Assembly (NCBI GenBank): GCA_022925895.1
Contig: JAKSYS010000080.1
Location: forward strand, 1-64,000
Length of the DNA stretch: 64,000 bases
Source: Fragilaria crotonensis
Taxonomy: Eukaryota; Bacillariophyta; Fragilariophyceae; Fragilariales; Fragilariaceae
Direction: 5' to 3'
Shown: one piece after another, positions 26,314 to 48,260 of the stretch
Layout: every line of letters begins with the position of its first letter
How positions within the stretch are numbered: the stretch's first letter is position 1
Position numbers and translations under genes: made by a program
Notes under the pieces: model-generated
The model's input: the letters and a program-made list of their open reading frames with translations, nothing else
Told to the model about the DNA's origin: nothing
The model's database searches: none

Positions 26314-26798
26314 GAGACCATTCGGGCATTAATTCGATGTTTTGATTTTTGGTTATGAGTCACATTTTCACGCCTGCCATTTCAGAGATTAACGCCTCTT
26401 TTTCATGTTCATACTTTATCAATGAGAATCAATAATTTAAAAATGTTGGATAAGTAAAAATAAATTTTGTTTAAGTATTCTTGACTTGCAAAATTTTATG
26501 CCTTGGAGTTTTCCTGTCGATGTGATGCTGTTGCTGTCAGTGTGAACTTCGTCAAAAATAAGAAGTTAGTAACAGGCGTGCACTATGTCATTCCTTGCCA
26601 TACCAGAGACACCATAGTGCACGCCTGTTGCTAACTTCGGCGAATTCGTCAAGTTACGGCGCCTTGAAAAATGCACTGGACCGTTAAATACTCCTGGGCA
26701 GAGTATACTTGTCTGTCAATTCAAAATTCTAGAGTAAAACGGACATATAACGCCAGGCCGGCTGGATCGAAACACCGAATTAATTCTTGAATGGTCTC
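26314..26798. mobile_element. Foldback MITE-like element, copy A (485 bp)
   Basis: Left end GAGACCATTCGGGCATTAAT and right end ...ATTAATTCTTGAATGGTCTC are inverted copies over about 35 bp with a few mismatches; both are bounded by TA. The centre holds a 26-bp hairpin (26562-26638). The right half (from the hairpin on) matches a second locus at 48003-48260. No protein is encoded. TA flanks suggest a mariner-type origin; this is inference. Confidence 0.6.
26562..26638. repeat. 26-bp stem hairpin, copy A
   Basis: Arms 26562-26587 and 26613-26638 pair at 25 of 26 positions around a 25-base loop. The apical arm is GCGTGCACTATG; the basal arm is GAAGTTAGTAACAG. The twin at 48022-48098 has the same stem and loop sizes and the same apical arm but a different basal arm. 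Confidence 0.9.
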
Positions 26799-26922
26799 TA
26801 GTGGGACCGAAGCAACGATGCAATCGTGTTGAATTTGAGGATCAACATGCTCAGTGTCAAAAGCACGGCATATTGTCATGCTTTTCGTGCATGTTGAGAT
26901 AAAAGATGCTGGAGTGTGTTTG

Positions 26923-26991
26923 CCGTGTGCACCGATAGTGCAACTGCTCATGATGTACTTGATGAAGCTTTAGAGCTATCGGTGCACACGG
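26923..26991. repeat. Perfect 16-bp hairpin
   Basis: CCGTGTGCACCGATAG at 26923-26938 and its exact complement at 26976-26991, loop 37 bases. Lies in the right part of the outer TA-flanked element. Confidence 0.9.
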
Positions 26992-27206
26992 GAGGTGGTC
27001 CGGATCAAGAGGTCGTTGATGTAGGAAGTCATCAACAACGAAGCACGACGTTTGACGTGATGGAAACTTCGAAGGAAGAAAAAACTAAAAAAATATCATA
27101 CTACACCTATTGAGGCTACCCAAAATCCTTTTTTCGTGCACCCAGCCATAGTAGACACTCCGATCAAATGTGAGGTACTCAGTACTCAGTACCCACTAGT
27201 TGTAAG

Positions 27207-27264
27207 TTAATTGTGTGTGTGCGTGCGTGCGTCTGTTACGGAGTATGACCACTCTGGGGTACTG
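27207..27264 (+). repeat. Direct repeat, copy 2
   Basis: Second copy of the repeat at 25613-25666, with GAGTATGACCACTCTGGGGT intact and a longer GTGT run. It lies 58 bp right of the outer TA-flanked element. Confidence 0.85.
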
Positions 27265-28757
27265 GATCAAATGAATGCTGTCTGACTTTTTTGATGGTCA
27301 TCTTCTGCACAACATTGTTTATATAAGGAGGTCCTGATATCAAAACTGTGCCCTCAGTATCATCAACAGGATTTGTAAACAACACTTCAATACTGTGTAT
27401 TTTGGCAATCTAAATTAGCAAATTTCTATGAATTTGTCACTTTTTTCCTCATCTAATTGTGTTGTAAAACATGTCATTTGCAGCACGCTTGCCACTACAC
27501 ACAACCGGGCACAACCCATACCGTACACGTATTCCAAAAGTCCGACCAATTGGGAGGCACCCACTAGTATCATGTAATTGTATGATGCAAGCAACTTTTA
27601 TTTATGACATACATATATATATATAAAAATATTATAGAGGAGTACAGGATGAATCAAAGTATACAAGTAGGGATACAGCCAACTGTGTCATAGTATCTCC
27701 TAACCAAGTGACATCTACTGTACCAGGTACTGTGGATTGACCGATACATTACCGTATACTGTAGTATACCGCAACCGGCAACATATAATAACCATAGCGA
27801 ATATGCGTATATGTCATAGCCCATAGCTGTACACTTGCTTACCTACCGTAGTTCTGGAAGACTGCAAAACCATGGGATATGTCCTGAGTCCTGATGATAG
27901 GGGAAGGAAGAACTCCTGTCCAGAAATTCCAGATCCCTTGATGCTCCATCCAAAGCCTCCTGTGATGACATTGTCACTAGTACAGAATCATGGCATGTCT
28001 GCAACAATGAGTTTTTGCAATGACAGGGGTTGCAAATGTAATTAACCTGTTGGTAGCATGGAAATGGCAACAAGTTTAAGTGTTGAATGTGACAACACCA
28101 TGACAACAAGGACAACAACACAGAAAGTAGCGAATGCAACAATGGCGATGCAACAGCCATTAGTGCAGCATTGTGTTTGTTTTCATCATGTTTATGTGAT
28201 GATTCAATGTGTTTTTATGCAAATTCAGAATAAGTACCGCTGAGGTCGCGTAGGTGTGGAGGGTTGTTGAGAAATGCACATCCAAGGTGGAAATGGAATC
28301 CCAGCATCCTGAGCAGCTTCCACTTGTGGCTCAATTTTCTTCCTCCTTCAGAAGTTCCGTACATACATACTTTTACTCAGTTGTACTGGTACCTGCTGCA
28401 TTAATAGTAATGCTACAGCCATGAAATACTGCTACTCAGTGTCTGGTACTGTAAACTGAATACTGCAGCTCCTTTACTGTAGTATATCCTCCGTACAGTG
28501 GAAAAGTGGTTAATCAGAATCCTGTGGATTCCCAGAAGTCGCCTCAGCTGATTTGCAACAGCGAACGATATGGGAAGTGGTGCTACAGTGGAAGTCTACA
28601 CTGCTACGAGAGAGGGTGCCGAGAGCGTCCACAGGAAGGTCCGGCAAAATGAGTGCAATCGTGATTGCGGCGAAATTGCGCGCCCGCCGAAGGAGAAAGT
28701 GTTTTCCTCAGGAAATAGGCTGGCGCGAAACTGAATATGCCGGCGCGAGCATAAGTT
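27265..28757. other. Intergenic, no supported gene
   Basis: AT-rich with short frames on both strands. A 105-codon minus frame at 27843-28160 has Leu/Ser-biased composition and no family, and is not called. GTACTG and TACTGTAGTA patches recur near 27740-27760 and 28385-28490. Confidence 0.45.
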
Positions 28758-29265
28758 TACTGACATGATATGAAAAGACATTTGCTGACAAAAAGCAAAT
28801 CTGCTGACAAGGATAGCTAAATTGCTGATAGAATATGCTGACTGAAACAAGATCTGCTGACAGCAACGATGTGCTGGCAAAATCTGTTGACAAAAACAAA
28901 ATCTGCGGACAAGGAAAATCTTCTGACAAAATCTGCTTAAGAACAGAAAACTTCTATTGATGGAAAACTCCCGGATAATTTGGCTGCTTAGAGAAGATAA
29001 AGTAATTGTGACAAATCAAGTGTCATCAAGCGGAAAGAATGCTTTCTACCGTTAAGTTTTATGTTGAGGAAACAGCTAGTAAGAAGAGAAACCGGTCGAC
29101 AGGATTGGTTGACAAAAAGGGGGCTTCTGACTTCAGAAATCTCCTGACAGAATCTGCTGACAAAAATGAAAATGCTAAATAAAGAAATCTGCTGACAAAA
29201 ACAAAACTTCTGACAATAGAAATCTGCTGACAATAGAAATGTTCTGACAAAATCTGCTGACAATG
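28758..29265. repeat. Degenerate minisatellite, AAATCTGCTGACAAAA type
   Basis: About 20 diverged units built on (A)AATCTGCTGACAAAAAC, spaced 16-30 bp. They are clearest at 28780-28935 and again at 29140-29265, with a non-repeat interval near 28940-29110. On the minus strand the units translate to SADFV/QQISF-like repeats with no stop over stretches, which creates false open frames. Confidence 0.75.
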
Positions 29266-30075
29266 AAAAAACCTTGCCGTCTTGATAGATCAACACCATA
29301 GCTAAAAATTTCGCATCACGCCTGCCAGCCACAGGCTGGCGAACACATTTCAATGGTCTCTACTAGACTCTATGATAGAGTATTTAGCCCCCGGATGTTT
29401 GCTTAGGCCGGACCTTCCAGTACTGTAGTCCGTACGCTTGGTTAATGCTACGTGTCTTCAGTGGTATTGGGCTAAAAACGTAGTGGTTATGATGTTAAAT
29501 ATCCGAGGAGAAGAACTGCTCCCGGATGGTTCACTTCACACTGGCCTGAGGTTTCTGCTGGGGATGGTGGGTGGGTTAGCAAAAAAATGAAGAAATCCAT
29601 TGGCAGATGTGTCATCACAAATGCATTCAAATCGTTCAGATACAAACAAGTAAGCGATTTCCATCAGAGTTGTTGTTGTTTTTTCGTCAACAGGACTGCT
29701 TGGCATTGACTGTCCTAAAGGCCGTCAGTAATGCAGTACGTAGGGACTATATCTAGATTGACAGTGCGTTAATGCGGCAGTAAAGGGGTACCTGGTACCG
29801 TCTACTGTTGCGTCGGCAATTCGTCTTATCTCTGCAAACCACCGTCGTTAACAACGACGACGAAAAAAGGTGAAAGTTCTATTAAATGGGTCTGCCTGTA
29901 GTTCGACGTTCGACGACGGCCAGAACCTTTTCTGTCATTGACCACTGATAGATTCTTGGCTTTTATGCTGATGTGGTTTGTTGCTTGATGTTTGATTTAG
30001 TTGCCAAAATTCGTTGTCCATTGACGTGCTCAACAACGAAGCTGGGCATAGCAGTCGGCGCCACCTTCCTCCAGC
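29266..30075. other. Intergenic, upstream of NOL6
   Basis: No supported gene. Near 29347 there is a short match (CAATGGTCTCTA) to the right end of the foldback family. The last few hundred bases should contain the NOL6 promoter. Confidence 0.45.
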
Positions 30076-33000
30076 ATGACGAAGAATGAACTTCAAGCAG
30101 ATGCGTCGTTCTTGGAGGCAGTTGACGCACCTCTACTAGAACTTCATAAATCGAGCATTCTTAAGCTTGAGATCGATGAGCTTCTAGACGAGTGTCGTTT
30201 GAATGTTTTTGAGGTTTCATGGGCGCAGACTGCGAGAGATTACGTGGCCTTGCTTTCTAGCGTCCTTTCCAAGATTCCGCAAACATCCATCGGCAAAGAT
30301 GGTTGTCCATTTCCCTTGAAATCTGACAAGGTCGCGACTCTTGAAATGCCGAAGGATTTGACTGTTGTCCCCACAGGATCGTACGGAATAAACTGCGTCA
30401 CGAAAAGGTCAGGAAATGCAAACGTGCTTCCGACGTTAGATTGTGCCATTGTTGTGCCGAATTCTTACTGGAACACAAAGGATTATCTCAATCACCGATA
30501 CATGGATGTGAGTAGCTCGGAGTGTTAAACAAAACGTTCCCATCACTTCTCTCTTTGTCTCATAGGTCAATTTTCATACCAACAGAAACGAAATCTAATC
30601 CTTTGGAGCATTGCAAAATTCCTCTCTGGAAAGAAATTCAAAAAACACATTGGAAGGGTTGAATGGAGGTATTTCAATGGGAATCAACACGCACCAGCGT
30701 TGATTCTAACCCCGCCGTCGATGCAATCGAACGAAAAGAAAAAACGGAAAACGGACAACCAGACGCAGGCGGTGAAATTCACTGTCCAGATTGTCATGGC
30801 AATGGAATCCTTGAGTTGGATACCAGCAGCGCGTATGTTTCCGAATCGATCGAACATTAAGGGAGGTAGTGCGACACCATACTACAACGCCATACTCGCT
30901 CGCGATGCCTTTTGGAGCGAATGGCCGTTCATCATAATGGAGGATAAGGCAGAGTATCCATCGTTCGGAGATGCATTCATTGTGGCCAAAGTTTGGTGTC
31001 TACAGCGAGGTTTTTTGAGAGGCCATGACTCTTTTGATGAAATGCAGATTGCTACCTTGTTATTGTACCTATTTCGTTCCAGACGCGCTGGCTCCCGGAT
31101 GGCCCCTCTGCAAGTGTTCACAATCCTAATGAAGTTCATGGCAGAAGAATGGACTAGCAAGGTTATGACTCTTCCAGCGCAGGGCCAGACAGAGACACAG
31201 ACCGTTGCTTCCTGTGAAAATGCTAAGGCGTATGCTGATCAAGCGAAATTTTCTCCGATCGACCCGAATGGCGATCCCGTCACATTGCTTTTGTGCCACC
31301 AACACTTCTCGCCGAGTAGAGCGGTGTTATTGAATAGCTCGATGTTGGGAAACTTCTTGGGAACACTCTCTCCTGCTTTCTGCCATTCTGTTTCCGCGCA
31401 AGCGAAATGCACTGTCGAGTGCTTGAACTCATCAAGGACCTTTTCAAGTCTGTTCATGACTACCGATCGCTTCTGGACTTGCCTGGATTCATACTTTCAC
31501 GTACCCCTCCAAGATATCGCATGGAAGCGTGTTTGCCTTCGGAATCCTGAGGCGAAAGATCTAGGCGATGTTGAGTGCTTGTCGCGGGACCTCGTGCAAA
31601 TATTGAGGCAGGCTCTGGGTGACAGGGTGACGGACGTCAGACTCCTCACAACTGGAAATGGCCATAATGTTCGCAACGGTGATCCTGATCAGATCCCGAC
31701 GCACCGCGTCGATTCCTTTGCGACTTCCTCGCAGTTGCTGACCACCGCAATGGGAATGGAGAAAGTTGTGGTTGGGCTCAAGATCAATGCTGACACCTGT
31801 CATCGTGCTGTCGACCGAGGGCCACCAGCCGATGACATCGCCGGTGTAAAGACGTTTTTGGACCTATGGGGTGATGCTGCAGAATTGCGCAGGTTCAAGG
31901 ATGGTGCGATTGTTCACGCCGTTGTTTGGAATACGGCGAAGTCAGACCCCGAGAAGCAGTATGCAGTATTTGATGGAGATGAACGGACACAGGGGGGGAT
32001 TGTGGAACGCATCGTTCAGCATATCCTAGGGCTTCATTTTTTCAAAGAAGGAAGGGATTCTCCCAGGTTTCTTCTCCGCGATATGCTATCCGTAGTTGAG
32101 GGTGTGCGGACGCCCACATCAGACACAGTTTCCAAGTTAATGACCAGCACGGCTGCGGCTCATCGAAGCATCATCAATTCCTTTGACTCGCTTGCCTCTT
32201 TTTGAGAAAAAATAGTGAGCAGACGGGTTCGGATGGATTTCGTACTCCACTTGGTCTTCCCCTCCAAATCGACGCAGTGGAGCCCTTATCCCCTTCACTG
32301 AGGTATTCCAACACTTTTCCTTCGATACCACATCCCATGCTCGGTGGCGATGGAAAGCATGCTGGTAAAGTTAACAGCGTTTTCTCAGATGCTCCTATCC
32401 ATGTACAGATTCGATTTGGAAGGTCGTCGAAGTGGCCCACAGATCTGAAAGCAATTGGTGCAGCGAAGACCGCGATGCTTGCTCAGCTTGCAGACGGTAT
32501 AGAATCAATGAAGAAACGAGGCAGCTGTCCAGGGTTCGACGGTCCAATCGTGGTCACACCTTCCCACTTAACCCTGGGATTCCAGGGATATTCGTGGAGG
32601 ATATTCGTCCGAGCTGATCCCGAGTTGTATCTCCTACGAGGGTTGCAAAAACCCAGTGATGACGCAAAACGCATTCTCAGCACTTTAATCAAGGACCATG
32701 TTTCGGCGGCGTCGCATCATGCGACTATTCATGCAATTCACACGCTTCACCCGTCGGCGGGACATGCGGTTCGTCTCGTCAACATCTGGTTGGCAGCACA
32801 CATGCTGTCTGGTCTTGTGCCTCTTGAGGCAGTGGAACTTTTGGTCGCAAGGGTGTACTCCGACCTAGAGAGTCGAAACACAGCCCCGGCTACGGCTGTG
32901 TCTGGTTTTTTTCGCGTGCTGCGATTGATCGCCACGCATGATTGGGTGCGGTAAGTGTGGTCCTTCGTTTGCATGTATTTTCTATCCTCGTCTCTTGACT

Positions 33001-34044
33001 AACAAATAAGGCATGAAGGCAACCTCTGATTGTCGATCCTCAGGGCCACCTTTCTGACGCTGATCGTGCAACAATCCAAGCGCGCTTCGAGGAGGATCGA
33101 GGACCTGACGTCAGCAAAGGCCCCAGTATGTACATCATTGCGCCATATGATTGTAAGGACCTTCTGAATGAAGATCCTACCACCAGCTTCTCTGAAACTA
33201 ATGTTCCGAGCACTATCGCCAATTTCGCTTCTTGGCGCCCCACTTTTACTCAATCAATGCCGGAACGAGTCGCTCTGTTTCGAACTGTTGCGCTTGCCAA
33301 GCGATCCTACGATTTCTTGCTCAACTGTCTGGAGGACGCTTCCAGCGGCAATTGGACCGCTGCGTTTAAGGAGACTCAGACCTCGTTGAAATCGTTTAGC
33401 CTCCTTTTGCGGGTTGATAGTGATTTCGTACTTGATACAGGCTTTTCTTCCACTAAAGATGGTGTTGTCTTAAAGCAGTCGGTCGATGGTCACCTTGAAA
33501 GCATTTTCACCCGGAGTGCCAGGAATCGATACGAGGGTCCAAAGGCCTTGCGTCGAACGATGTATCGGAATCTGAGCAGTCCAGCATTGCACTTCATCCT
33601 TGTAAGTTTAATTGTCACTTGTGAGTTGCACGGTGATTGCTCCTAATCTTCTGTTATTTCTTCACGCAGCATGACTGGCGCCCGCTTGAGGACACAGTCA
33701 ATACACTTCGTCTCAACTTGGGAAGATATGCCCTGTTCTTTTACAACGAATACGCGCCTGAAGTAGTCGCAGTTCTCTGGCGACCGTCTACGTTCCAACC
33801 CAAGCCTTTCTCTGCTGTCAATTCGGAATACGTTCGTCCAGTTGAATTCAATGATTGGAAGTCAGATTCCTTAGCCATGGAGAACATAAAAGACTTTTTG
33901 AGAGAGATAAAGCACCATACCAGAGATATGGTCGTGGACGTGAAGTTATTTGATGATCGATCCACAGGACGTCGATTGGAAAGGGCACCGAAGCGAGATA
34001 TCGGCCAGGTTGGTTCAGACTCTGATAGCGATGACAGCACCTGA
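30076..34044 (+). CDS. NOL6: Nucleolar protein NOL6/Utp22 (Nrap family)
   Basis: A part of the small-subunit processome that matures 18S rRNA; works in the nucleolus with Rrp7 (established for the family). Four exons are read: 30076-30507, 30586-32950, 33019-33601 and 33670-34044, all GT-AG. Joins read HRYMD-KRNLILW, HDWVR-QPLIVDPQ and ALHFIL-HDWRPLED. About 1,251 residues against about 1,150 in human NOL6. Nrap marks are FLEAVDAPLLELHKSSILKL near the start, VVPTGSYGINC, TPYYNAILARD, FIVAKVWCLQRGFL, GHAVRLVNIWLAAHML and PLIVDPQGHLSDADR. The tail is acidic (GSDSDSDDST). The frame slips once at the five-T run 32199-32203; one more T reads SLASFLRKNSEQTGSDGF. I read this as a sequence error, as both sides are conserved NOL6. 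Confidence 0.9.
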
Positions 34045-34327
34045 TGGCATCTCGTACATTGCCAATCAATGAATGTTGATGCTTCCTGTTTTGAACCTAG
34101 TGAAGTCCCGAGTAGATGGTGATCGTGTGTAACTAGTAATGCGAAGATTTGAAGTCGGCAAGTCTTCCGCATCGGGCAACTCGTCCACAATGCTCCTTAC
34201 GTCATTCAGTAAGGACCGGAGGCGATAGATAAATGATGCAATCGTTACAACTTGTTCACGGCAGATAAATACAGAAAGGAAGGCACTTATGATATAGAAT
34301 TACTACCGGTAGCCACGTAATTCTTCC

Positions 34328-34878
34328 CTACTCTCTACGAACTCCTCTTATGCGACGAGCCAGTTGCATGTCCTTGGGCATAATTGTCACTCTTTTACCG
34401 TGAAGGGCGCAGAGATTTGCGTCTTCAAAAAGTCCCACGAGATGAGCTTCGGAGGCTTCTTGGAGCGCAAGAATGGCTGTGCCTTGCCACCGAAATGCCA
34501 CTCGACTCATTGACATTTGGATCTCTCTAACAAGGCGAGCAAAAGGAAGCCTTCTAATCAGCAGTTCAGTTGAGCCTTGGTACTGACGGATTTCTCGCAG
34601 AGCTCTTTCACCTGTATTGCAAATTAATTTCATGTCAGGCTCATGTTAAGAGTTGAGAAGGAATTTGAAAAAGGAAATTCAAAAACTTAGCACTGAAAAG
34701 TGACAGTCGCCAGTGACATCGAGTCCTTACCGGGTCGCATCTTCCTTTTGCGTCTTATCGATGGTTTCGGTAACCCTCTTCGAGCAGCTTCTTCTAACGA
34801 AGCAGGACGTCCGCTCCCTGTACTTCCTCTCGATTGACGACGAGGGCCTCCAGGCTTCGATTGCTTGTATCGCGCCAT
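34328..34878 (-). CDS. cenH3: Centromeric histone H3 variant (cenH3/CENP-A-like)
   Basis: Two exons on the minus strand, 34878-34731 and 34611-34328 (intron gtaagg...tacag), give 143 residues. The N-tail ([18 protein letters not shown]...) lacks the canonical ARTKQTARKS sequence and the usual H3 acetyl/methyl-Lys pattern. The histone fold begins [20 protein letters not shown]. Loop 1 is one residue longer than in H3 ([17 protein letters not shown]) and carries the Trp (FRWQG) typical of CENP-A, where H3 has FQSSA. The fold ends [15 protein letters not shown]. It replaces H3 in centromeric nucleosomes. The gene is tail-to-tail with NOL6, 283 bp apart. A generic H3 variant is the alternative, but Trp plus the long loop favour cenH3. 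Confidence 0.82.
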
Positions 34879-35264
34879 TTCGAGAGAATTCTGTTGAGAT
34901 AACGCCTGCGGTGATGATATTTAAAGTGCGATTTTGTGTTTTCATTTATCGGTACCTGTGGTACTGTAATCCAGTATGAAGCACGATAGGAGGACTACGA
35001 CTATATGTATTCATACAACGCAAAGAAAAGTAGTAGTCATACAAACGGAAGGGTCCAATTTTGGTAAAACTTTCACCATGTATCATACAACGGCCGCTGT
35101 AGGAGAATATTCCAGTACTAATTTTACAGTAGAAACGAATTCTTGCACCGTACTCGGAGTACAGTACTTATGTTTCAAGAAGAGGAGAGACCATAAGAAA
35201 ATGTACTCAACTACCGGTAGTACGATACTGGCATATGGCATATTCTCTACGATCCGCATTGCAT
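34879..35264. other. Upstream region of cenH3
   Basis: A non-coding stretch between the cenH3 start and the copia fossil. Contains ACTACCGGTAGTAC near 35212 and several GTAC motifs. Confidence 0.45.
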
Positions 35265-36115
35265 TCATCCATCATCTGCGGGGGCCGTCTGCTTCGTGAG
35301 CTGAGCGACGCTGCGCGTTACATCCTTCAGATTCTTAATAACTTCCGCGTTAGAATCCTTCGTTTTCTCTTTCGCCTTCGCGCCTTTAGTGCCTCGGCTG
35401 TCTTTAGCGCCAGGTTTGTGTCCGCATTCTAGGCACTTAGCGGCAAGTTCTCTCTTGGCATCAGTGGATAGGGCATCGTATTCCGCCTTGGTAAAATGGC
35501 GGTCTTTGACAGCTTCGGACTTGCGCTTGGACCCGCCAGCTCTTGTCTTGTCTTCGGATATGCCCACGGTCGGTGTCGTATTCCACTTCGAGGTCTGCTT
35601 AATAAAGTCCTTATACAACGTGACGCAAGCGTCAAAGTTGTTCCGGAGCGTGGCATCAGACATAATACGAGTCTTGACAGATTCAAATTTATTGGTCTTA
35701 TCCCATTGAGGAGGTAATGGACCTTAGTAGAGCACGGGTCGATGCCCGTATATCCGTGCTCAACAAGTCCTTCCATAATCCAATGCTGGGACTTGTGTAC
35801 ATTAATGTAGTACTTTTCGAAATCCCAATGATGTTGTTCGCTGTTATAAACGGTTGTCTTGAGTTTGCCCTCAGTCATCAAGGCCATGCTATTGACATTA
35901 TTCGGGCCAAGGAAGTGCTTATGCAACCCCTTGTATGCCATGTGGCCGTCGCGTGTTCTTTGAGCTGGCTTAACGTTAGTCCAGCAGGATTGATCGCGAG
36001 TTATCCTCTCAATGATCTCCCATACCCATACCTTCTCGCGGTTGGTAATGTAAGTCAGGTCGGGCACAATTGTGCCGTTAGGTCCGAGAGCGAAGCGGCT
36101 ATAAAACGATCGCAT
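35265..36115 (-). mobile_element. Ty1/copia LTR-retrotransposon fossil, gag part
   Basis: The minus strand resembles the Gag region of diatom copia-type (CoDi-like) elements. Only this part is present: no protease, integrase or reverse transcriptase and no paired LTRs were seen. It is broken, with at least one interruption. Age cannot be estimated from a single copy. Confidence 0.6.
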
Positions 36116-36254
36116 CGTACCGTAGGCATATGGTATGGTGGGTTACGTGTTTAGTACTCGCGTAGTGTTGTTCTCCAGTACTTGTGAATCAAATCAAGTG
36201 TGTGTCCAATGTCCAATCGGTCGTACTTGTACGGTCCGATCGTACGCCTGTCCA

Positions 36255-36418: not shown

Positions 36419-36621
36419 CCCATCCTGAGATAGGGAGCCAGTCCATGTCATACTGTACGCATCCCTAATCGAGCCGGCCAACACCTGCAGAAATGTACGG
36501 GAGTACTGTCTTCTACTGACTACTGGCATTTTATACGGTATTTCTTCAGACAGAGGAACAGCCCGAAATAAGGTGATGTGTAATTTGTACCAGTTTTATC
36601 TAATTCTCTTTTTATACTTAA

Positions 36622-37916: not shown

Positions 37917-38693
37917 GAGCATTCTCTATGGTTGAGGGGGGTACGTCATAAATCTGACCCTACTAGGGTCAGATGAATGTACCCTTTTTAAAAAATGAAA
38001 AATTGAGCTTTCTCTATCGTTGACCCCCTTTTTTACTGACGTACTGGTGTTTTCCTACACTACCCGCCAGACTTTTCTACTCTCATCTCTCATCATTGAA
38101 ATGACGAAGTCGTTGCTGAGCCGACAAACAAATACAACGCATACAGTACGTGCCTTCTTTTTGCTTCGGGGAGCGCGTTGAGGCAGACGAGGTGACGTAG
38201 GAGTTCGTTCGTCTGTGTCTGATGCCCTGTTGCCACTGGTACGTGCCGTCTTCTTGTTTCGGGGAGAGCGTCGAGGCGGATGCGTCGTTGGAGTTCATCC
38301 GTCAGCATCTGATTCGCTGTTGACACTAGTAGTAGCTAATACTAGTACATGCCTTCGTCTTGTTGCTTTGGGGAGAGCGTCGAGGCGAAGGTGATGTCGG
38401 AGTTCCAGGCATGGTGATTTGGAAAATACCAGTAGGAGTTTGAAGTGTGACTAGAAGGGTTTGCAGTTGATGACGCGCAGTTTGACACGAGAAATGAGAG
38501 AAACGCACAATGTACCCCCCAAATGTACATAGGGGTCAGATTTGGAAAATCTGGCCAGATTTTCGAAATCTGACCAGGGGGGGTATATTTGTGACCCCCC
38601 CCCAAATGTCAAATATAGTACCCTCATAGAGAATGCGTTTTTGAAAGAAAGTTGAAATTTACGCAAATATACCCCTCCATAGAGAATGCTCTC
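37917..38693. mobile_element. Tourist-like MITE 3 (777 bp, TAA duplication)
   Basis: Begins after the TAA shared with element 2 and ends before TAA at 38694-38696. Inverted ends: GAGCATTCTCTATGG on the left, CCATAGAGAATGCTCTC on the right (two extra bases on the right). Extended similarity includes TTGAGGGGGGTA on the left and TACCCCTC on the right. Internal inverted TCTGACC/GGTCAGA motifs recur. No coding. Confidence 0.65.
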
Positions 38694-38696
38694 TAA

Positions 38697-40158
38697 GAGT
38701 CTGATGCTTCTATGTAGGAGAAAAGCTCGATCGGCTCGATTATTATAGGGACACTGGACACAGGAGGTTCCGGAATTCCTGCTACATAGTGTATCGTACT
38801 CCGTACAGGATTGGTAGAATTTGTCAGTGCATATTGAAAATGTCTCAACCACGAAATTCTGTAATTTACAATCAGATCTCATGTCAAAACGTGACGCACC
38901 TCAGAGACTTCAATGTATAAATCCTGAATGGATATGTATAATATGTTTGTCTATTAACCATTTGTGTCATACCAATATCACCTTCACCTTCCTACACACG
39001 AGCTTGTTCTACAATACGGTAAATTCATTTTGTCCTCGTTGGCAGACTATCGTTCGGAGAAATTGTTTTCGAACAAGAGTTACAGATAGGAATCTTGCGT
39101 TAAGTAAAGTTGAGAAAGAATGAGAAAGTTTAAGAAAATATGAGAAACTTCTTTTTTCTCACGTCCGATTGAGAAAGTTTGAGATTATTTAAGAAAATTT
39201 AAGAAGGCGCGATTTTATTACCAGGTTCACGTAGATTATTTGAGATTTTATAAGCTCAAATCTTCTTAAAGTTTCTTAAGAAAGTTTGAGAAAACTTAAG
39301 AAAATTTAAGAAACAGCTCGAAAACATGTGTATCTTGACGATTCCTAATGAGAAGATTCCATTCGAATGCGACGGAGTATCTCAAGTAATTCCATAAGAA
39401 TCGAACGTGAAGAATTCATTCATCGGATTGTCATACCAGTCGATACCAGAGCATTTTTCCAAGCCTTCTTTCATTTTTTTCGAGCCGAATTTGTCGTACG
39501 TACATTTCTACTATTCCATGCTTACGGCGAATTTAGATAGGTGTACCATATTGAATAAAAAAATTTAGTTTGTATGTCAAATGCGAAATTCCGTTGGAAA
39601 TCACTAAACTCGTCGTAACCGTTTTCACTTGTTTTCATCTCGGTGGACATAAGCGTCGAAAAGAAGATATTCCGGAACCTCCAGGACACACAAGAGACAA
39701 GAGGCACACACGTGGGCCCCAGCCCCAGGTAAAATACTGTCGTATCAGATACGGTACGGTATATTTTCGTCAGTGGCAACGTGAAAATCCGGTATGCATA
39801 CTGTACACTGTAAATACAAGTAATCTGTCCAATCAAACGTAAAGCCAAGTATGTACCAGTGTATGCATAATGCATATATGCTCATAGAAGAAGTACAATC
39901 CCATACAAGGCTATTAGTACGATGTACTCTGATACGATACGTAGTACAGTACGAGTACCGCATTACCATTACAGCGTGCCTGCAGAGAAGCCATCGAAGC
40001 GAAACGAATGGAGGGAGGCCACAGGCCACGAGGCCACGCAGCACGAATCGTCGATGAATCACCTTTTCACTTGAATTGTAACATTAACACCTCAAGAGTG
40101 TGCAGGTGTGCCAGTCGACCGGTATTGTGGTTGTGTAAATAGTCAGCATTCTTCTATC
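38697..40158. other. Intergenic, repeat-rich, upstream of Tim17
   Basis: No supported gene. Contains an A/T-rich, GAGAAAGTTT-based repetitive patch (39103-39320) and scattered GTAC motifs near 39920-39960. The last 100 bases should hold the Tim17 promoter. Confidence 0.45.
39103..39320. repeat. AAGAAAATTT / GAGAAAGTTT low-complexity repeat
   Basis: Many diverged copies of GAGAAAGTTTGAG and AAGAAAATTTAAGAA on both strands, including inverted pairs such as CTTCTTAAAGTTTCTTAAG near 39262-39281. Flanked by ordinary intergenic DNA. Confidence 0.6.
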
Positions 40159-40911
40159 ATGACTCGTAAGAATGGAATGGCTGAACGAGAACCGTGTCCT
40201 TGGAGAATTGTGGATGATGTCGGAGGTGCTTTTTGCATGGGAGCAATTGGAGGCGGAATATGGCATACTGTAAAGGGCGCAAGATTGGCTCCGGTGGGTT
40301 CAAGGTTCCAAGGTTCACTAAGTGCAGTCCAAGCTCGGGCACCTGTACTGGGAGGACAGTTTGCTGTGTGGGGGTGCCTTTTCGCTTGTTGCGATTGCAC
40401 TCTGTCGGGGATCCGCCAGAAGGTACGTATTTTTTGGCCATCGTTCAGTGGTGTTGCTATGCCGTCGTACGTTGGGCTTTAAATTAAAATGCTTCGGCTC
40501 AGTTCAAATACTTCTCAGGAGGATCCATGGAACTCTATTATCAGTGGAGCGGCGACTGGCGGGATCCTCGCAGCGCGTGCAGGGCCTCGAGCTATGGCTA
40601 GCGCGGCCGCTGTCGGGGGCATTCTCCTCGCGCTTATCGAAGGTATGGGAATCATGTTCACAAAGATGATGGCCCAGCCTGTGCCAACCAAGGACGACTA
40701 CGAGCTTGCCATGCGGCAGGATCCTACTGCACCGCCCACAAGTGCAGGGTTTAACATCATGGGAAGGATTTCAGGCGGCAACGCTCCTCCAGCCGCAACA
40801 GCTCCTCCCCCTCCAATGGACATGATGTCTATGGAGACCACATTTTCTTCTGAGCCTACTAAAGAGGAAAAGCCCTCTGGCTCTTCTTGGTTCTCCTTCG
40901 GTTCGGGATAG
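40159..40911 (+). CDS. TIM17: Mitochondrial inner-membrane translocase subunit Tim17
   Basis: A channel subunit of the TIM23 presequence translocase. Two exons, 40159-40422 and 40519-40911 (intron gtacgt...ctcag), join as [13 protein letters not shown] and give 218 residues. The family signature is plain: [48 protein letters not shown] and [19 protein letters not shown]. Four hydrophobic segments are expected within the first 140 residues. The C-terminal 75 residues are a Pro/Met/Ser-rich extension ([17 protein letters not shown]) beyond the core. The ATG at 40159 is chosen because it puts the conserved block 7 residues from the start, as in other Tim17 proteins. Confidence 0.93.
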
Positions 40912-41149
40912 GACGCCTTGCAACTGCTTCATCGCCCTTTTCTAATTACTACCGTTATCATGTACAGTACTGTAGTTTACGAACTGTTCTATGTTCTATG
41001 TACCGGCAGAACCTGTACTTGTACCAGGTGCTACCATAGTAGGTATTCATATGATAGGCATGACATACAAGCATACAAGTTATAGTACTACCGGTAGTAC
41101 TACTTGTATGCGTTTCTCTAACCACGGAGTATGTCTTATGCCTTATGCC

Positions 41150-41722
41150 CAGGGGTGTCCTATTTAAGGCGACCGGGCCGGCGCGCCTAGCAGCGCCTTA
41201 ATTAGTTAATATAGGCGCTTTTTTTGGACCTTCAAAAAGGCGGTGTAAGGCGGTGGGGGTTAGGGGTTAGGGTTTTGGGGATTTAGAGTTAAGGTTTATG
41301 ACTGTACAGTGCAGCTGCAACGCTCATCCCCACTTCAGTCCATCAAGAAAATGAAACTGCCAACAGACCTCACAGCTCACCATGAACAATCATGGATGTA
41401 ACTTCAATTGTTTCAGCTTTTTTCACTGCAACAGTTGAGTTCCAAGTCCAAATTAAGCATCTGGCTACTGGCTACGGATATACTGGAGTACTGTACAATA
41501 TGGTACTGTATCCATGTTTTTACTGTATGTTGTTTATAATCTACTGGAGTACTGTCGTACTATGCTACGAGAGTGCTCCGTACAAACTTACACGTACAAT
41601 TCTACGCGATGGTATGTTTGTAGCGTAGAATCTACAGGACCTTATTTAAGGCGCTTTTTCAAGGCTTCAAAAAGGCGATTGGCCCCAAAATTAAGGCGCC
41701 CGCCTTAAATAGGACACCCCTG
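41150..41722. mobile_element. hAT-like MITE (573 bp) with exact 8-bp target duplication
   Basis: The terminal inverted repeat CAGGGGTGTCCTATTTAAGG at 41150 has its complement ending at 41722. CTTATGCC flanks both sides exactly (41142-41149 and 41723-41730). CAGGGGTG ends with 8-bp duplications define hAT elements. Subterminal AAGGCGC motifs repeat on both sides. There is no transposase, so it is non-autonomous. The perfect duplication suggests a fairly recent insertion. Confidence 0.92.
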
Positions 41723-41730
41723 CTTATGCC

Positions 41731-42371
41731 TTATTATGCATAATTGAGCGATGAACTCCGTTTATACTTCGTATTTCATATACTGCCATATGCAGCATAT
41801 GATACGCAGTGCAGGCAGTGTAGCTGGTAATGCAGTACTTGTACCTGTACTGTAAAATTGGGACGTCTTGAGTCTTGACCACCAGCACGGCTCAATTGTC
41901 CTCCAATACAATCGTTCTCTACCGGTAGTATACGCTAGTATACCGGTACAGTTTGAGATCAGACGGTGTTTCGTTGCGGCGAGTCCGACATTTCCTCAAA
42001 ACAGTCGTCGTGCGCTAATAGAACATCCATCCGTTGTCTACTAAATTAGGGGGTTTCTTCCATGTGCCAGTCATATTCTCATACGATCCCGAATTAAATT
42101 TGTATTTTACCCTGACTATACATTCCGTAGAGTTCAGATGTTCGCATAATCACATAATAGAAAATCACAGCGCCGGCAATCTTGCTAAACTCGCTGTACC
42201 CGTTTCGGCGAAACAAAATCCTTAATTTAGTGTGGACTGCAGCAATGTACTTTACAAGATTCAAGGTCCGCGTGCAATTACCTTTGCATGACATCCCGTT
42301 ACAAGTTGAATTGCCTTCAATTGGAAGATAACAGAGGTAGTTGATCTATTCCCCGTCAGAAAGATAACAGC
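41731..42371. other. Intergenic upstream of large acidic protein gene
   Basis: Contains CTACCGGTAGTATAC and TATACCGGTAC near 41930-41950, and a weak inverted pair (CTAAATTAGGGGGTTT near 42039, AAAATCCTTAATTTAG near 42214) that might be another small element. No gene. Confidence 0.4.
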
Positions 42372-45300
42372 ATGCCAGCCTTAACTCCGGGAGTTAAATC
42401 CCCAGCTGAACTGAAAGCGGATCAACTTCGCCAGCAAATGAAGGCAGCAGCACAGTTGACAGCGATGGAGGAGGGCCCACCAAGCATAGGGCATTTGGAA
42501 CTGAAAGGGTTGCATTCTCCTAGGGCAGCCCCGCCATCTCGTGATCGAGTGTCCGCAGCAATCGCGTTGGTTCGAGCAAGACAGGCTGCCCGATATCGAT
42601 CATCCAACACAACTGAACAACCTTCGCAAGCATCTCCCACATCACCGAGGGCATCAATCATATCGACCATTGTTGCGAGCAGAAAAGCAGAGAATGACTC
42701 GCCAGCTCGGTCTCCTCTCTCCCCGGCGAAAAGAAATTCACCAGCTAGACTTGCTGAAGCCCACAGAAGGAATTTGTCGCTACGCCGATCTCCCTTGTCT
42801 CCAAAATCCCAAGATCCTCTCCCTTCTGCCCCTGCAGAAACTTCGAGGAATAACGAGCTCAATGGAGCTATTGATTCGTCTCCAAAGGCGACGCCCAAAT
42901 CTCCTAAAAGCGGTGCCTTCTTTCCTGACTTCTATGATGCGAACGCCATTGGCAACAGACAGCTCGCAAAAGCTTCACTGACGCCTGATCCGGAGGAAAA
43001 CAACAATCAGGAAAATTCTCCGCAGGATGATCGCCATGAGATGGAATCACCGCCAGAATCTAGTCGCAATGACCTTATCAGCAATATCCGTGCCACACCA
43101 GGCACCGTGGCAGTGACGCCGCTTGGTCCCGCCGAAAATGTCAGCGCATCCATTGATTCAGATGAGTGCACGCTCGATACTCAGATGCTGAAGGACGTTG
43201 GCCTATTCATCGACGCTGTGCACAACAAACAAAGTGCCAAAGTTCCCGAAATTCACCGAATTGAGGGGAAACGCACCTTGCAGTCCACTCAGGGGCACTT
43301 GCATCGACCCACATCGTCAGAATCCACTGACGATGAATTCATTACAGTCACCCCAGAAACGCTCGCAGGAATCGGTCAGTACATTGATGCATTGGCGAAA
43401 CCGAAAGACAAGGAAATCCAATCATCTGAAACATCTTCATCGGATGCAGATGACATGATCCCTGTGGAGACGAAGGTGGGCATCGGAGCTTTCATCGACG
43501 CGCTGCACAACAAATCGCCTTCGCCGGACGAGGCGAAGCATACCTTGTATCTCTCCAGCAGCGGCGACAGCTCAGTCGATCAAAATGTAGTATCCGACGT
43601 TGATGAGTATTATCAGCGTGATTCGACGCATCACGGGGTGAGTGGTGACGATGAGGACCTACGCCTTCTGGAGGAAGTTCTTAGCGACAGGGTGGAAATG
43701 AGTGCACACGATGTCAATGGGGGTATGAGCACGATCCGAGATCCAGCGAACCCTGTCGTGGGCGCTTCCCCATCCCCCAGCGAACTAGAGGGAGATGAGT
43801 TCTTTGAAGTGGATTCGTCTCCATCAAAGCAGAATGCGGTCGAAGTTCAAAATAGCGAAGTCGTGACCGAATCGTATGGTGATGCGATGGGTCCCAGTAG
43901 CGCCTCAGTCTCCCATAGCCCGAATGTGGCGGCGTCTGAGTTTCCATGCGATGCTAATCCTCTTCTCAATCACAACGTCCATGATCGGCACTGCGATGCC
44001 AATGTCGAGGTAGCCGAAGGCTTTGAAATGACTCTTGTGGGAAATTCTGATGACGCTCTTGACGATGCAGTCAACGCAGCTCTGATCGGCGAAATCGGAT
44101 CGTCTATCTCGAGCGAAGAGGTTATAGTTCGAAACTATCCGGCTTCTGTAACGAATGAAGGGTGTAAGATCCATGATGATGTCTCGGAACAGCCTTTACC
44201 TGGTCAGGTCGATCTTGTTGTCTCTGAGCTTTCCGTGCAGGTGAAGTCGTTTGGCAAAGATGGCAAAACTGAAGGAACTCTCAGCGGAGAGAACGGCGTT
44301 GACCAGTTGTATTCAAACCAAGCTACAGAAAGCGGCGAAAGAGAGGCAGAGATCTCGTCGGTTTTTGCGCCTCTTGGCAGTGTTGAAATGAGTCGTTTGA
44401 GCGAGGCTCGCGAGATTGATGGGGATACCAGTGAGCTCGTCAATGCATTCCTCGGCGTGGCAAGTACTCGGGGTACCAAGGCATTGATCGGCGGTCAGGA
44501 TTCGCATGCAGAAGTGAAGACCGGCAGTGTCTTTGTTCCCCCGGTCACGAATAACAGTCCTGAGGTTCGGGGTGACGATCCTGTTCATATGGCCAGATCT
44601 GATGATGGGGTGCCCGTCGATTCAAGTCCAATTTTTGGAAATATAATTGGGAATGGGCTAGACCAAGTCGCTGAAGAATGTTCATCGAAGATTGCTTCAA
44701 ATTTTGATGTTGACGGTGTCGCAGGAAAGTTCCCCATCGATACTTCATTGGATGACGATGCTGGAGAATTGGTGAATGCGTTTCTGAGCGGATCGAATGG
44801 CCCTATTGCGCCGTGTTCTCCAAAAGCGCCTGATCAGAAAAGACCTTCCACTGCATTGAGATCACCATCATCAAAAGAGGCTGGCATCGAAGACATAATG
44901 GAAGAACTCGTTTCGAAAGTAGGGTCGAAGAATGCCGCTGTTTTTGTCCATCTTGCCTGGGGAGCATCCGGCGATGAGATCAAGACCTTGAAGAGATTCA
45001 TCAAAGCCGCGGTACCCTTCCTCTCAGGACAATCTGCGCCCTTGGTCGCAGAGGCTCAAGTCCGCAGTGTCGCTTTCCAGGTTGGACTTGCCGCTGACGA
45101 TTTGGAGCAGGTTATCGACCATATTTTTGGGGAGGTCGTTTGTATGGTCCCAGAATCGCTTTCTGCCGACACGGCTGACCTTACTAACATTCTGAACGAT
45201 TCAAAGTTCGAGAACATCGAAGAAATCGACGAGAGCGCGAATATATCAGCCTTCTTGTCTCGCATGAACGCTCTTGAAGCGGGTGGACACTTCGGGGAGA

Positions 45301-46748
45301 CAGAAGCCACTGATGCTGCCGCCGATGAAGCAGTCGAAGTTGATTTCGATCTCGGCTTCGTTAACAGGATTCTTGAGCCTGTGGGCAGTGAAGAGGCTCC
45401 TTGGTGGAACGAGGACGTTGATGAAGCATTCGCAGACCCAACGTCGGTCACCAAGAGCAGTCAAATTCTGATGCCAGGGAGTGACGTAAATGTTTCGTCT
45501 CCTAGGCAACCCGAGAGAATGATGTCGCAACGATCCCAATCTGCATCTCCGCAGAAGCTGAGACTCCCGAGATCCCGATCGATGCGGAACGAAGCGGACC
45601 CTGAGCAAGTGCGTGCATTGCAAAACCAGAAGGCGCAGATATCAAGCCAACAACGACTTGACAATGCTCGAACATTCATTCTAAACTCAGTCTCCGTCGA
45701 GGATGTTCCACCAAGTCTCAGCTTGACGAAGGTACCATCGTTAATAGGTGACATCGAGACAATGCTCGAGGCGCGGGAGAAGTCGGCAAATAGATCGAAA
45801 AACGCAAAACAAGCGAAGTGGATAAGTCCATGGGAGAAGCGATGGGTTACTTCTGGAGCAGAGCGAAACGCTGCGAAGTCGATATCCATGGTGAAGTTCG
45901 AAGCTTCGAAAGCGCCTCGCCTTGAAGGCGTCGCCGCCGCCATGAGGCTTTCGAACTGGACGTCTCGGCCAGAACGTCATGATCGTAGGCTACCGGTGAA
46001 ACAACAGTGGAGATTGGCCTACAAAGAACGAACTAAGAACCACCCCGGCTATTCCACGGTTGATGTTTTCTCTCTGTATGACGCGTCAATTGTAGTCGGA
46101 GAGAACCATCCGTACGATGACGAACCTTGGGAATATCGTGATGTGAAGCAACGGTTCCTACACGAGCAGAGTCTGTCAATGTCTCGGAACTGGTTTGGAA
46201 CAGTCCTCAGAAAACGAGGCAATGATCGGTACCGAGAACCTGTTGCTAATCCCAAGTCTATGGAAATGCCTATGGAGAATCTCCCAGGCGAAGGAGAGTG
46301 GCTTGAAGAATGGTACACAACGTGGCAGCAACGTCATAACGAAACGAAAAAGAAATCGAAGACAGGGCAAGATGACGAGTTTGATTCGGACAGCGATGAC
46401 TCCTATGGAAGTGAGACTTGCAACACATACACGGTGTACACTGAAGGCGACGAGACTACTCGGGGAGATGACGATACAGCGACGTACAGCAGGAGCGTGT
46501 ACACTGGTATATCTGGAAGTGTGTACACATCGCGACGATCCCAGCGCAGTCGGTACACTCGCCGGTCTCGCGGATACGAGGAAGACGACGATTCGTGGGA
46601 GGACCCGCCTGAATGTGGTACATTCCAGAATGTCAAGCAAAAGATTGGAGAACGTTTGAGTCTTGTACGCTACGAGCATCTCAGTTCCCTAAGGCAGAGC
46701 CGATGGCGGAAGAGGTATTTCCCTCGAGGAACTTTTCCTTACAAGTGA
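42372..46748 (+). CDS. Large acidic Ser-rich protein with FIDALHNK repeats, unknown function
   Basis: A single-exon protein of 1,458 residues that I do not recognise. Residues 1-200 are Ser/Pro/Arg-rich with repeated SP sites (RRSPLSPKS), likely phosphorylated. Three copies of a short motif appear: MLKDVGLFIDAVHNK near 272, LAGIGQYIDAL near 331 and VGIGAFIDALHNK near 367. Two DTSELVNAFLG/DAGELVNAFLS units occur near 685 and 796. Around 840-940 a helical block (EELVSKVGSKNAAVFVHLAW) could fold. The last 300 residues are basic and aromatic (WISPWEKRWVTSG, WRLAYKERTKNHPGYSTVD), then Tyr/Ser/Thr-rich (YTVYTEGDETT), ending KRYFPRGTFPYK. No signal peptide, membrane helix or catalytic motif. Confidence 0.75.
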   Translation: MPALTPGVKSPAELKADQLRQQMKAAAQLTAMEEGPPSIGHLELKGLHSPRAAPPSRDRVSAAIALVRARQAARYRSSNTTEQPSQASPTSPRASIISTIVASRKAENDSPARSPLSPAKRNSPARLAEAHRRNLSLRRSPLSPKSQDPLPSAPAETSRNNELNGAIDSSPKATPKSPKSGAFFPDFYDANAIGNRQLAKASLTPDPEENNNQENSPQDDRHEMESPPESSRNDLISNIRATPGTVAVTPLGPAENVSASIDSDECTLDTQMLKDVGLFIDAVHNKQSAKVPEIHRIEGKRTLQSTQGHLHRPTSSESTDDEFITVTPETLAGIGQYIDALAKPKDKEIQSSETSSSDADDMIPVETKVGIGAFIDALHNKSPSPDEAKHTLYLSSSGDSSVDQNVVSDVDEYYQRDSTHHGVSGDDEDLRLLEEVLSDRVEMSAHDVNGGMSTIRDPANPVVGASPSPSELEGDEFFEVDSSPSKQNAVEVQNSEVVTESYGDAMGPSSASVSHSPNVAASEFPCDANPLLNHNVHDRHCDANVEVAEGFEMTLVGNSDDALDDAVNAALIGEIGSSISSEEVIVRNYPASVTNEGCKIHDDVSEQPLPGQVDLVVSELSVQVKSFGKDGKTEGTLSGENGVDQLYSNQATESGEREAEISSVFAPLGSVEMSRLSEAREIDGDTSELVNAFLGVASTRGTKALIGGQDSHAEVKTGSVFVPPVTNNSPEVRGDDPVHMARSDDGVPVDSSPIFGNIIGNGLDQVAEECSSKIASNFDVDGVAGKFPIDTSLDDDAGELVNAFLSGSNGPIAPCSPKAPDQKRPSTALRSPSSKEAGIEDIMEELVSKVGSKNAAVFVHLAWGASGDEIKTLKRFIKAAVPFLSGQSAPLVAEAQVRSVAFQVGLAADDLEQVIDHIFGEVVCMVPESLSADTADLTNILNDSKFENIEEIDESANISAFLSRMNALEAGGHFGETEATDAAADEAVEVDFDLGFVNRILEPVGSEEAPWWNEDVDEAFADPTSVTKSSQILMPGSDVNVSSPRQPERMMSQRSQSASPQKLRLPRSRSMRNEADPEQVRALQNQKAQISSQQRLDNARTFILNSVSVEDVPPSLSLTKVPSLIGDIETMLEAREKSANRSKNAKQAKWISPWEKRWVTSGAERNAAKSISMVKFEASKAPRLEGVAAAMRLSNWTSRPERHDRRLPVKQQWRLAYKERTKNHPGYSTVDVFSLYDASIVVGENHPYDDEPWEYRDVKQRFLHEQSLSMSRNWFGTVLRKRGNDRYREPVANPKSMEMPMENLPGEGEWLEEWYTTWQQRHNETKKKSKTGQDDEFDSDSDDSYGSETCNTYTVYTEGDETTRGDDDTATYSRSVYTGISGSVYTSRRSQRSRYTRRSRGYEEDDDSWEDPPECGTFQNVKQKIGERLSLVRYEHLSSLRQSRWRKRYFPRGTFPYK

Positions 46749-46778
46749 TGTGTCGGTGGTCGTGTGTGTGTGTGTGTT

Positions 46779-47116
46779 GTTAGTCGGTGCACCACTTCGT
46801 ATGTTTTAGTCTAGTTAGTTGATCTCGCATGGTGCATCTGACAGCACTCGACATACATTTCCTCCCTTTAGTTCTACTGTAGTCGAGTTTCTTCGTTGGT
46901 CTGGATTAGCACGAAGGTTGGAGATAACCGATTGTGAAGCGTACTCATGTGTTTTCATGTTGGTCGGTGCACTACTTCGTACGTAATAGTCTTATTCGTG
47001 AAACCACTTTGATCTCGCTTGGTAAGCACAGGCATACACTTCCTCCCTTTAGTTCAGCCTTTCTTCGCTGGCCTGGAGAAGCACGAAGCTGGGAGATACT
47101 GCCGATTGTGAAGCGT
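46779..47116 (+). repeat. Diverged tandem duplication, two units of about 160 bp
   Basis: Unit 1 is 46779-46942, unit 2 is 46959-47116. Shared blocks in order: GGTCGGTGCACYACTTCGTA-like start, TTGATCTCGC, CATACAYTTCCTCCCTTTAG, AGCACGAAG and CCGATTGTGAAGCGT. Unit 2 has internal small deletions. It lies just 3' of the large acidic gene and may include its polyadenylation region. Confidence 0.85.
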
Positions 47117-48002
47117 GAAAATAGTAGTTGCCACTCTCAATATACAGAAAATATGGAGTACTTCAGACTTCAGAGTCTGGAGCACGACATAGTACCAGGG
47201 AGTACATCGGAGGGAGGGTACAGGTACAGTACATGTTGTATGCACACATGCATACCTACCGTGTTACGATTCATGACAAAGAGTCGATCATTACGTGCCA
47301 TTTAAGGCAGATGGTACAATGTAATCCATTAGTAGCTACAATGTAATCAACTAGAAACTACCGGTAGTCGTCAGTTGTTTGGAGGGTTGTTGGGCGGTCG
47401 AAAAATTGAACCAGTAGTTGAGGTCCTGACACTCTCGGACGACAAGGATTCCACCATTTCTTGAAGTGGAGCATCGCAGGATAAGCTTTACAACAAGAAC
47501 AGGAAACAGGGCATGCCGGAGGTAGATCATTCGGAGTTTCCTCCGTTACTTGTTGTGATCATCGCGAACATGTCCTCGGGAAACAAGGTCGAAGCATCCT
47601 CGTCGTCAAACTCGGTGTTGACGGAACGAATTGGTAGTAGCAAAGAGGACAGCCTCGTAGGCAGGTGCTTCATCTTCGCCGCCCTGATACTTTTAACCGC
47701 CGCTGGTAGAATTAACTTGGACTGGGTAGTGTTGATCTATCGGCGTCAAATAAAAGGGGAAGCCCCATTGTGAATGTGAATCAGGGTCACCAGCAACAAA
47801 GAGTGTTCGTTACAACTTTGTGCAGCTTCACACGAATCCTGATTGCTTGGATTCTCCACAGAGAATCTACACAGGAATTGGTACAAAATGAAGAATTCAA
47901 CGGGCCAATGAGAGTGAGACTTGCACCTTCCGTGGAGTGTACGCTGGGAACTAGTACAATTCTAGTTTTCTTCCCCGTGGAAGGCCAATTCCAAGCCCAA
48001 GG
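47117..48002. other. Intergenic, no supported gene
   Basis: An 86-codon frame at 47513-47773 with one hydrophobic stretch (CFIFAALILLTAAG) was considered and not called. An AACTACCGGTAGTC palindrome lies near 47357. Confidence 0.4.
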
Positions 48003-48260
48003 TCGACTTCGCCAAAAACCAAAACGACGACGAGAGCGTGCACTATGTGAGTCCCCTCAATATATTGGACACCATAGTGCACGCTTTCATCGTCGTTTCA
48101 GGAATTGGTGGAGTTATTGAACATCAAACATCGAGATTGACCGTTAAACACTCTGAGGTATAGACTGTTTTATATAAGTTGTCTAAGTCGTAGAGTGATA
48201 ACTGCAAGATAACGGTGAGCTGGCTGGATCGGGACACTGCTTCAGAGCCCGAATGGTCTC
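48003..48260. repeat. Foldback element, copy B (right half)
   Basis: Matches 26542-26798 block by block: GACTTCGCCAAAAA, hairpin, GACCGTTAAACACTC, GCTGGCTGGATCG and the terminal GCCCGAATGGTCTC followed by TA. Hairpin-to-end distance is 162 bp here and 160 bp in copy A. No left terminal repeat was found, so the left half is lost or too diverged. Confidence 0.75.
48022..48098. repeat. 26-bp stem hairpin, copy B
   Basis: Arms 48022-48047 and 48073-48098 pair at 24 of 26 positions around a 25-base loop, the same geometry as copy A. The apical arm GCGTGCACTATG is identical to copy A; the basal arm AAACGACGACGAGA is different, yet still paired. Confidence 0.9.

Follow-up and report, generated by a model that had tools for sequence, protein, structure and literature searches.

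The window, the whole 64-kb stretch of DNA that was analysed, contains two distant hairpins on the reverse strand, at positions 26562-26638 and 48022-48098. Both have 26-bp stems and 25-nt loops, with exactly the coordinates given in the preliminary description. The first stem consists of 25 Watson-Crick pairs and one G.T pair, the second of 24 Watson-Crick pairs, one G.T pair and one mismatch, and these Watson-Crick counts bear out the pairing of 25/26 and 24/26 claimed earlier. The apical 12 bp (GCGTGCACTATG) are indeed the same in both hairpins. The basal 14 bp had been said to differ completely, which is slightly overstated: they are mostly different, and three of the 14 positions agree, approximately as expected by chance. 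Between the end of the hairpin and the end of GGTCTCTA there are 162 and 164 bp, rather than 160 and 162 bp. In the second hairpin weak pairing continues outward (48006-48114, reverse strand), forming 42-nt arms that are 79% complementary.

The two hairpins are not chance structures. The best hairpin scores in the 225-bp zone are 47.5 and 52.5, compared with shuffle means of about 15 and maxima of 25.5 and 26.5 (300 dinucleotide shuffles each). DNA folding z-scores for the two hairpins on both strands range from -9.0 to -11.2, and none of 200 shuffles folds as well. The apical 12-mer GCGTGCACTATG occurs 54 times on both strands of the 62.1-Mb genome (881 contigs), compared with two occurrences of the reversed pattern, and many of the occurrences are paired 37 bases apart, that is, with the same 25-nt spacer.

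Transposons carrying the hairpins

Both hairpins are parts of DNA transposons with terminal repeats. Element 1 is a 495-bp non-autonomous transposon (MITE) at 26309-26803 on the reverse strand, with its 5' (hairpin) end at the right. Six more copies are 97-99% identical to it over nearly the full length, and two further close copies are interrupted. Its 38-nt terminal inverted repeats (87%) begin with CACTAGAGACCATTC; the 3' end, starting with CACTAGAGACCATTCGGGC, is at 26309-26346 on the forward strand, and the 5' end at 26766-26803 on the reverse strand. The element is flanked by single G residues at 26308 and 26804, assigned as a 1-bp target duplication by the general rule deduced from other copies with empty sites; for element 1 itself none was found. 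The element is nested: the insert around it measures about 1.1 kb and has inverted ends of 77 nt (26013-26089 and 27083-27159, 74%; region 25593-27184). This insert interrupts a dispersed repeat present in more than 30 contigs, and the flanks are adjacent in many copies of the repeat.

Element 2, at about 47217-48268 on the reverse strand, is a truncated relative from the same transposon lineage. Its complete relative L019, of 1413 bp including the CAC..GTG ends, matches positions 47217-47787 (96%) and 47613-48264 (93%). The 5' terminal repeat (48228-48268, reverse strand) reads GGTCTCTA-GTA-GTG, with three extra bases before the terminal GTG. The far (3') end of element 2 was not found.

A 14-base end motif of this family occurs 76 times in the genome, and its reversed control does not occur. 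The elements fetched range from MITEs of about 325 bp (L028, L063) to two-gene copies of 5.5-6 kb. The long forward gene encodes the transposase and is open over 1119-1162 codons in L010, L011, L069 and L070; in others, for example L009, L012 and L014, it is broken or split. The reverse gene, of about 500 codons, is found in full-length copies (for example at L009:3866-5377, L014:4078-5739, L069:4033-5514 and L073:5987-7411) and is intact in some of them. A second lineage has other tips (CAATAGCGACC), and its transposase is 35% identical to that of the first over 671 columns. The second protein is common to both lineages (27% identity over 398 columns); two rows of its alignment, L076 and L081, are transposase fragments, and no result depends on either. 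Five MITEs of about 470 bp (L056, L060, L061, L062, L064) have dyad arms as long as 58-88 bp and thus consist in large part of a single foldback; both ends were seen in L056, L060, L061 and L062.

The tips are CACTA..TAGTG in lineage 1 and CAATA..TATTG in lineage 2. Fifty lineage-1 elements were listed, and 27 of the 34 copies with intact CAC and GTG are flanked by the same base on both sides. At the next two mirror positions the bases agree in 6/34 and 8/34 copies, and two-base equality was observed in 4/34. In lineage 2 the flanking bases are the same in six of seven elements, the exception being one whose end is altered. Empty sites were found for at least six of the 20 elements searched (40 of 268 candidates scored). 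They demonstrate a clean 1-bp duplication outside CAC..GTG for L009, L019 and L020, and also for L023 if the first C of the element was lost; L010 and L011 are compatible with a 1-bp duplication, their empty copies being diverged. A TA duplication with target CACTAGTG was considered and ruled out, as the empty sites place CAC..GTG inside the element and give a duplication of 1 bp. No transposon paper was among the matches listed for 1-bp target duplications in the literature. The available text on the PHIS group describes no duplication or duplications of 1-4 bp (PMC10045372), and thus a length of 1 bp is not without precedent.

Sixteen lineage-1 elements have odd ends, some of them with 2-7 extra bases between CAC and TAGAGACC. 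Such extended tips, with 2-7 or more extra bases, lie at L063:285-304, L034:85-108, L016:3275-3302, L050:1642-1669 and, in the window, at 48255-48268. By eye, several of them spell CACTATG and so repeat the heptamer of the hairpin apex. In L063 and L034 it is still the outermost CAC that the 1-bp duplication borders.

Transposase type and known systems

The transposase has the layout D1-(92-97)-D2-(21)-C(2)C ... H(5)H-E, a DDE-like core in which the catalytic residues were assigned by motif. C(2)C follows D2 by 21 residues wherever the pattern was found; the pair of histidines spaced by five, with E 20 residues after the second H, was found in 13 of 18 sequences. Nothing convincing was found for the transposase among Pfam families and PDB sequences, and the viral contigs searched contain no relative. 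The second protein likewise had no convincing Pfam match in the members compared (L009, L014, L073, L074).

We take RAG1 to have a layout like that of this transposase. Two structure models are poor (mean pLDDT 50.0 and 50.9); in these models the order of strands and helices near D1 and D2 looks RNase-H-like. A Foldseek search with the second model placed RAG complexes at ranks 1-24 in PDB, with a best E-value of 0.0066 (probability 0.98), none below 0.001, and TM-scores of about 0.2-0.33. With the lineage-1 model (pLDDT 50.0), HzTransib ranked first at E = 0.35 and a RAG1 chain ranked tenth. Transposases of this broad class gave rise to RAG1, by which antibody genes are cut, and a lineage with CA..TG tips, a 1-bp duplication and a dyad at one end would widen the known range of RAG1-type machinery.

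The CMCT clade is described in the available text of PMC12730594 as having C(2)C, H(3-4)H between the second D and the last E, mostly CA..TG tips, and duplications of 2-5 bp. The apparent likeness here consists in the D-D-E-like motifs, C(2)C, the histidine pair before E, the RAG-like Foldseek matches and the 5'-CA..TG-3' tips. However, the histidines, H(5)H, are spaced one or two residues too far apart, and only 1 bp is duplicated instead of 2-5 bp. C(2)C and CA..TG fit, the histidine spacing is off and the duplication length fails; we call the lineage CMCT-like and not a member of the clade.

The CACTA (EnSpm) elements, as far as covered by the sections of PMC2613891 at hand, have CACTA tips and, inside them, motifs that diverge between families; some of these motifs can form stem-loops, and they are recognised by TNPA, which provides a precedent for the binding-site reading proposed below. 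The tips of lineage 1 agree with CACTA, and those of lineage 2 are CAATA. However, CACTA elements have many short repeats (four left and 24 right in soybean Tgmt*), whereas here there is one long dyad at one end at a near-constant distance. Their target duplication is 3 bp, compared with 1 bp here; for animal relatives of CACTA, an extract of PMC1636069 gives 2-bp repeats in 7/14 copies. Pfam matches at E up to 1 included no transposase family, EnSpm or other.

Hermes (hAT), according to the parts of PMC10368747 available, has asymmetric ends and a quasi-palindromic pair of sites near one end bound by two protein domains, but the motifs there are short (AAGT) and the bound pair lies within the first 27 bp. 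No hAT match was present among the Pfam results for this transposase.

Helitrons encode an HUH nuclease/helicase and have neither terminal inverted repeats nor target duplications. The elements considered here share with them a hairpin near one end (the 3' end in Helitrons; excerpt of PMC4778049). However, here terminal inverted repeats and 1-bp target duplications are present, and the Pfam results contain neither a helicase match nor an HUH nuclease/helicase domain.

Position and covariation of the dyad

In related elements the dyad is located near the 5' end, in the stretch that leads from the tip to the transposase gene; MITEs that have no genes retain it too, down to those of about 325 bp. 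In 27 of 34 entries its centre is placed 198-204 bp away from TAGAGACC, counting from the 5' tip, the one with the hairpin. The entries include near-identical copies and come from scans that took 105-330 bp from a tip-like match, so that the distance is bounded by design. In the window the centres are 200 bp (element 1) and 202 bp (element 2) inside TAGAGACC. Other distances are 216 bp (L035), 210 bp (L056, L060, L062), 212 bp (L061), 168 bp (L053) and 172 bp (L028); the 5' tip is uncertain in L028 and L062, as the model described below (R1) scores the other strand higher. In lineage 2, where the scans took 70-280 bp from a tip-like match and thus also bounded the distance, dyads are centred 148-162 bp inside the end in ten elements (L072, L073, L074, L075, L077, L078, L080, L081, L082, L084). 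Own arms in this lineage pair at 24-30 of 30 positions, with loops of 5-21 nt and stems of up to 55 bp. No comparable hairpin was found at the ends examined in L076 and L079. The hairpins are ordinary insofar as they are transposon parts; they are notable because two lineages have both kept a long dyad whose distance from one tip hardly varies.

Covariation was analysed in 26 distinct copies aligned without gaps over 24 pairs, and model R1 was built from the same 26. They derive from 34 centred hairpins, from which eight with at most four differences from a kept copy were left out. L034 was dropped, as its 7-bp insertion breaks the gapless register, and so was L009, which is off-centre; L018, L027, L054, L057 and many close copies never entered the set. 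L028 and L062 entered on the strand scored lower by the model. Due to this selection of rows, copies with weak stems and indels are under-represented. The dyads of elements 1 and 2 score 90.4 and 96.3 bits, both being training rows.

At a threshold of E <= 0.01, model R1 finds the dyad in 59 of 77 sources; its training rows account for 26 of the copies matched. Three pairs of sources are the same places (L017/L071, L051/L070, L055/L069), and therefore the matching sources number 56 distinct ones, with the window counted once for its two hairpins. The weaker matches are L083, L053 and L018. The 18 sources with no match comprise 12 loci of the other lineage, three loci with a chance 12-mer, two copies whose hairpin carries another insertion, and one 3' half. 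The set of loci is non-random, having been chosen by the 12-mer, DNA similarity, the end motif or the transposase, and it omits some lone end motifs, which lie in several contigs. The 12-mer alone was discarded as a family marker, since single matches in L065, L066 and L067 lie in sequence with no R1 match. The chance match in L065 sits in a direct repeat with copies about 6.5 kb apart, as in LTR elements (L065:332 and L065:6791), and positions 35290-36064 of the window match at 70% a stretch of L065 between these repeats.

In the 26 copies the 24-bp stem is 83.8% paired, compared with 71.0% in shuffles, and 93 cells are changed on both sides, compared with 39. The covariation score is 0.371, compared with 0.161 in shuffles, none of 500 reaching the observed value, and at most 0.121 when the arms are slid. 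A weaker measure, the number of pairs changed on both sides (16/24, 13.0 in shuffles), is matched by 19 of 500 shuffles. All these shuffle statistics ignore the relatedness of the copies. A tree-aware null, which is mostly too weak to single out pairs, leaves one pair standing out (E = 0.07 when all pairs are considered, 0.0003 within the stem); six of the 40 best-scoring column pairs in this test are symmetric about the centre.

With G.T counted, own arms pair at 20.1 of 24 positions and swapped arms at 16.9, and none of 5000 permutations reaches the observed sum; with Watson-Crick pairs only, the values are 18.8 and 15.0. Across 325 pairs of copies, own arms pair better in 301, the reverse holds in five, and 19 are equal. 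Exclusion of L028, L062 and L053 changes little (23 rows, 20.0 own and 16.7 swapped, 0/5000). At outer positions, 44-55 from the centre, own arms have no advantage (6.88 and 6.82). Copies with unpaired basal arms, named in the preliminary description as one of the observations that would speak against it, were not seen among the 26: between eight and 16 of the basal 16 pairs are formed, with a mean of 12.6. Poor stems do exist, in L018 and L009 (both outside the 26) and in L053. Conservation is 0.61 and 0.59 in the basal arms, 0.76 and 0.71 in the apical arms, 0.48 in the spacer, and 0.58 and 0.52 in the flanks. The basal arms are barely more conserved than the flanks, and so sequence recognition there is weak.

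Double-stranded site, folded hairpin or copied arms

The terminal repeats, which are 0.3-6 kb apart and unable to form one short hairpin, served as a control. In 26 elements their inner 24 positions are identical at 19.2 positions within an element and at 12.9 when swapped (0/5000 permutations); this test counts identity, whereas the hairpin test counts pairing. Thus the terminal repeats covary at least as strongly as the hairpin arms. Since inverted arms generally change together in these elements, covariation is no proof of folding. The earlier interpretation is therefore partly supported. Selection or a copying mechanism and recognition by a transposase, both of which it had suggested, fit a conserved subterminal part of a transposon with covarying arms, but action on the hairpin itself does not follow, as repeats hundreds to thousands of base pairs apart covary at least as much. 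More generally, inverted repeats can covary in the absence of RNA structure, which calls for caution.

We consider it somewhat probable, judging from sequence, that the dyad is a double-stranded, dyad-symmetric candidate site for the transposase or a partner protein. A dimer, either of the transposase or of the other protein that the element encodes, would bind two inverted half-sites with the core GTGCA; which of the proteins binds is a guess, since neither has a convincing Pfam match. We propose that the arms stay matched because both half-sites track the same evolving protein surface. The putative bound dyad would mark the 5' end and help to assemble the complex that synapses the two ends, and it might in addition reduce the activity of the transposase promoter. 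R1 has no match at the opposite end, and scanning six full-length elements for the half-site pattern brought up no clear second copy.

The alternative that we would place next, although we regard it as rather unlikely, is that gene conversion or fold-back repair copies one inverted arm onto the other while pairing itself is under little selection. Such general copying would explain why both the dyad and the distant terminal repeats covary, and the near-matched arms of 58-88 bp in some families, as well as the pairing of 52 of 53 positions in L084, look like the outcome of recent homogenisation. However, mismatches persist across families (A.G at one stem position in 8/26 rows), the spacer and the outer flanks are not homogenised, and the near-constant distance from the tip requires a separate cause. 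An extruded DNA cruciform or single-stranded hairpin recognised by its shape is a good deal less probable. The mostly fixed spacer accompanying covariation agrees with it, as do the short loops and long stems of the second lineage. In eight close copies of element 1, with indels at the element ends excluded, three of the five internal indels of at least 3 bp, both large insertions among them, are located in the dyad (L034, L036, L037), as if the spacer were exposed; but this clustering was noted post hoc and is small, the dyad being about 16% of the element. The covariation of the terminal repeats speaks against a folded form. A combined reading, in which an unnamed RAG1-like lineage with a 1-bp duplication has only its 5' end marked by a dyad whose pairing rather than sequence, as a cruciform extruded at a set distance from the tip, is read as shape, seems similarly improbable.

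The preliminary description had also proposed an RNA structure or a small-RNA precursor. An RNA hairpin in the leader of the transposase transcript would agree with the location of the dyad before the first gene, ORF1 starting about 400-450 bp from the end motif in L009, L010, L011, L014 and L069 (774 bp in L070), and with the strong folding of the DNA strands. However, one RNA strand should tolerate one kind of mismatch, and the roughly equal frequencies of G.T and A.C (34 and 26 cells, p = 0.37; 10 and 6 in lineage 2) do not favour RNA; mismatch events inferred from paired states lean, if at all, towards A.C. The dyad is also retained where there is no gene to lead, and Rfam has no matches at the gathering score in the window and eight related loci. 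With this mismatch symmetry and no Rfam family, an RNA role is disfavoured and appears very unlikely. The copies of the dyad are a natural set of compensated variants for probing how a transposase distinguishes its two ends.

Several insertions cluster in the hairpin. L036 and L037 (contigs C409 and C416) contain there a 329-bp insert with 8-bp repeats and a 795-bp insert; L034 contains a 7-bp duplication, and L027 and L054 have different 7-bp insertions at nearly the same site of the spacer. The numbers are small; possibly, the hairpin is a fragile site. Finally, L040 (contig C98) and L041 (contig C360) contain the same element with the same flanks in opposite orientation, which may reflect an assembly holding both haplotypes or a duplication.
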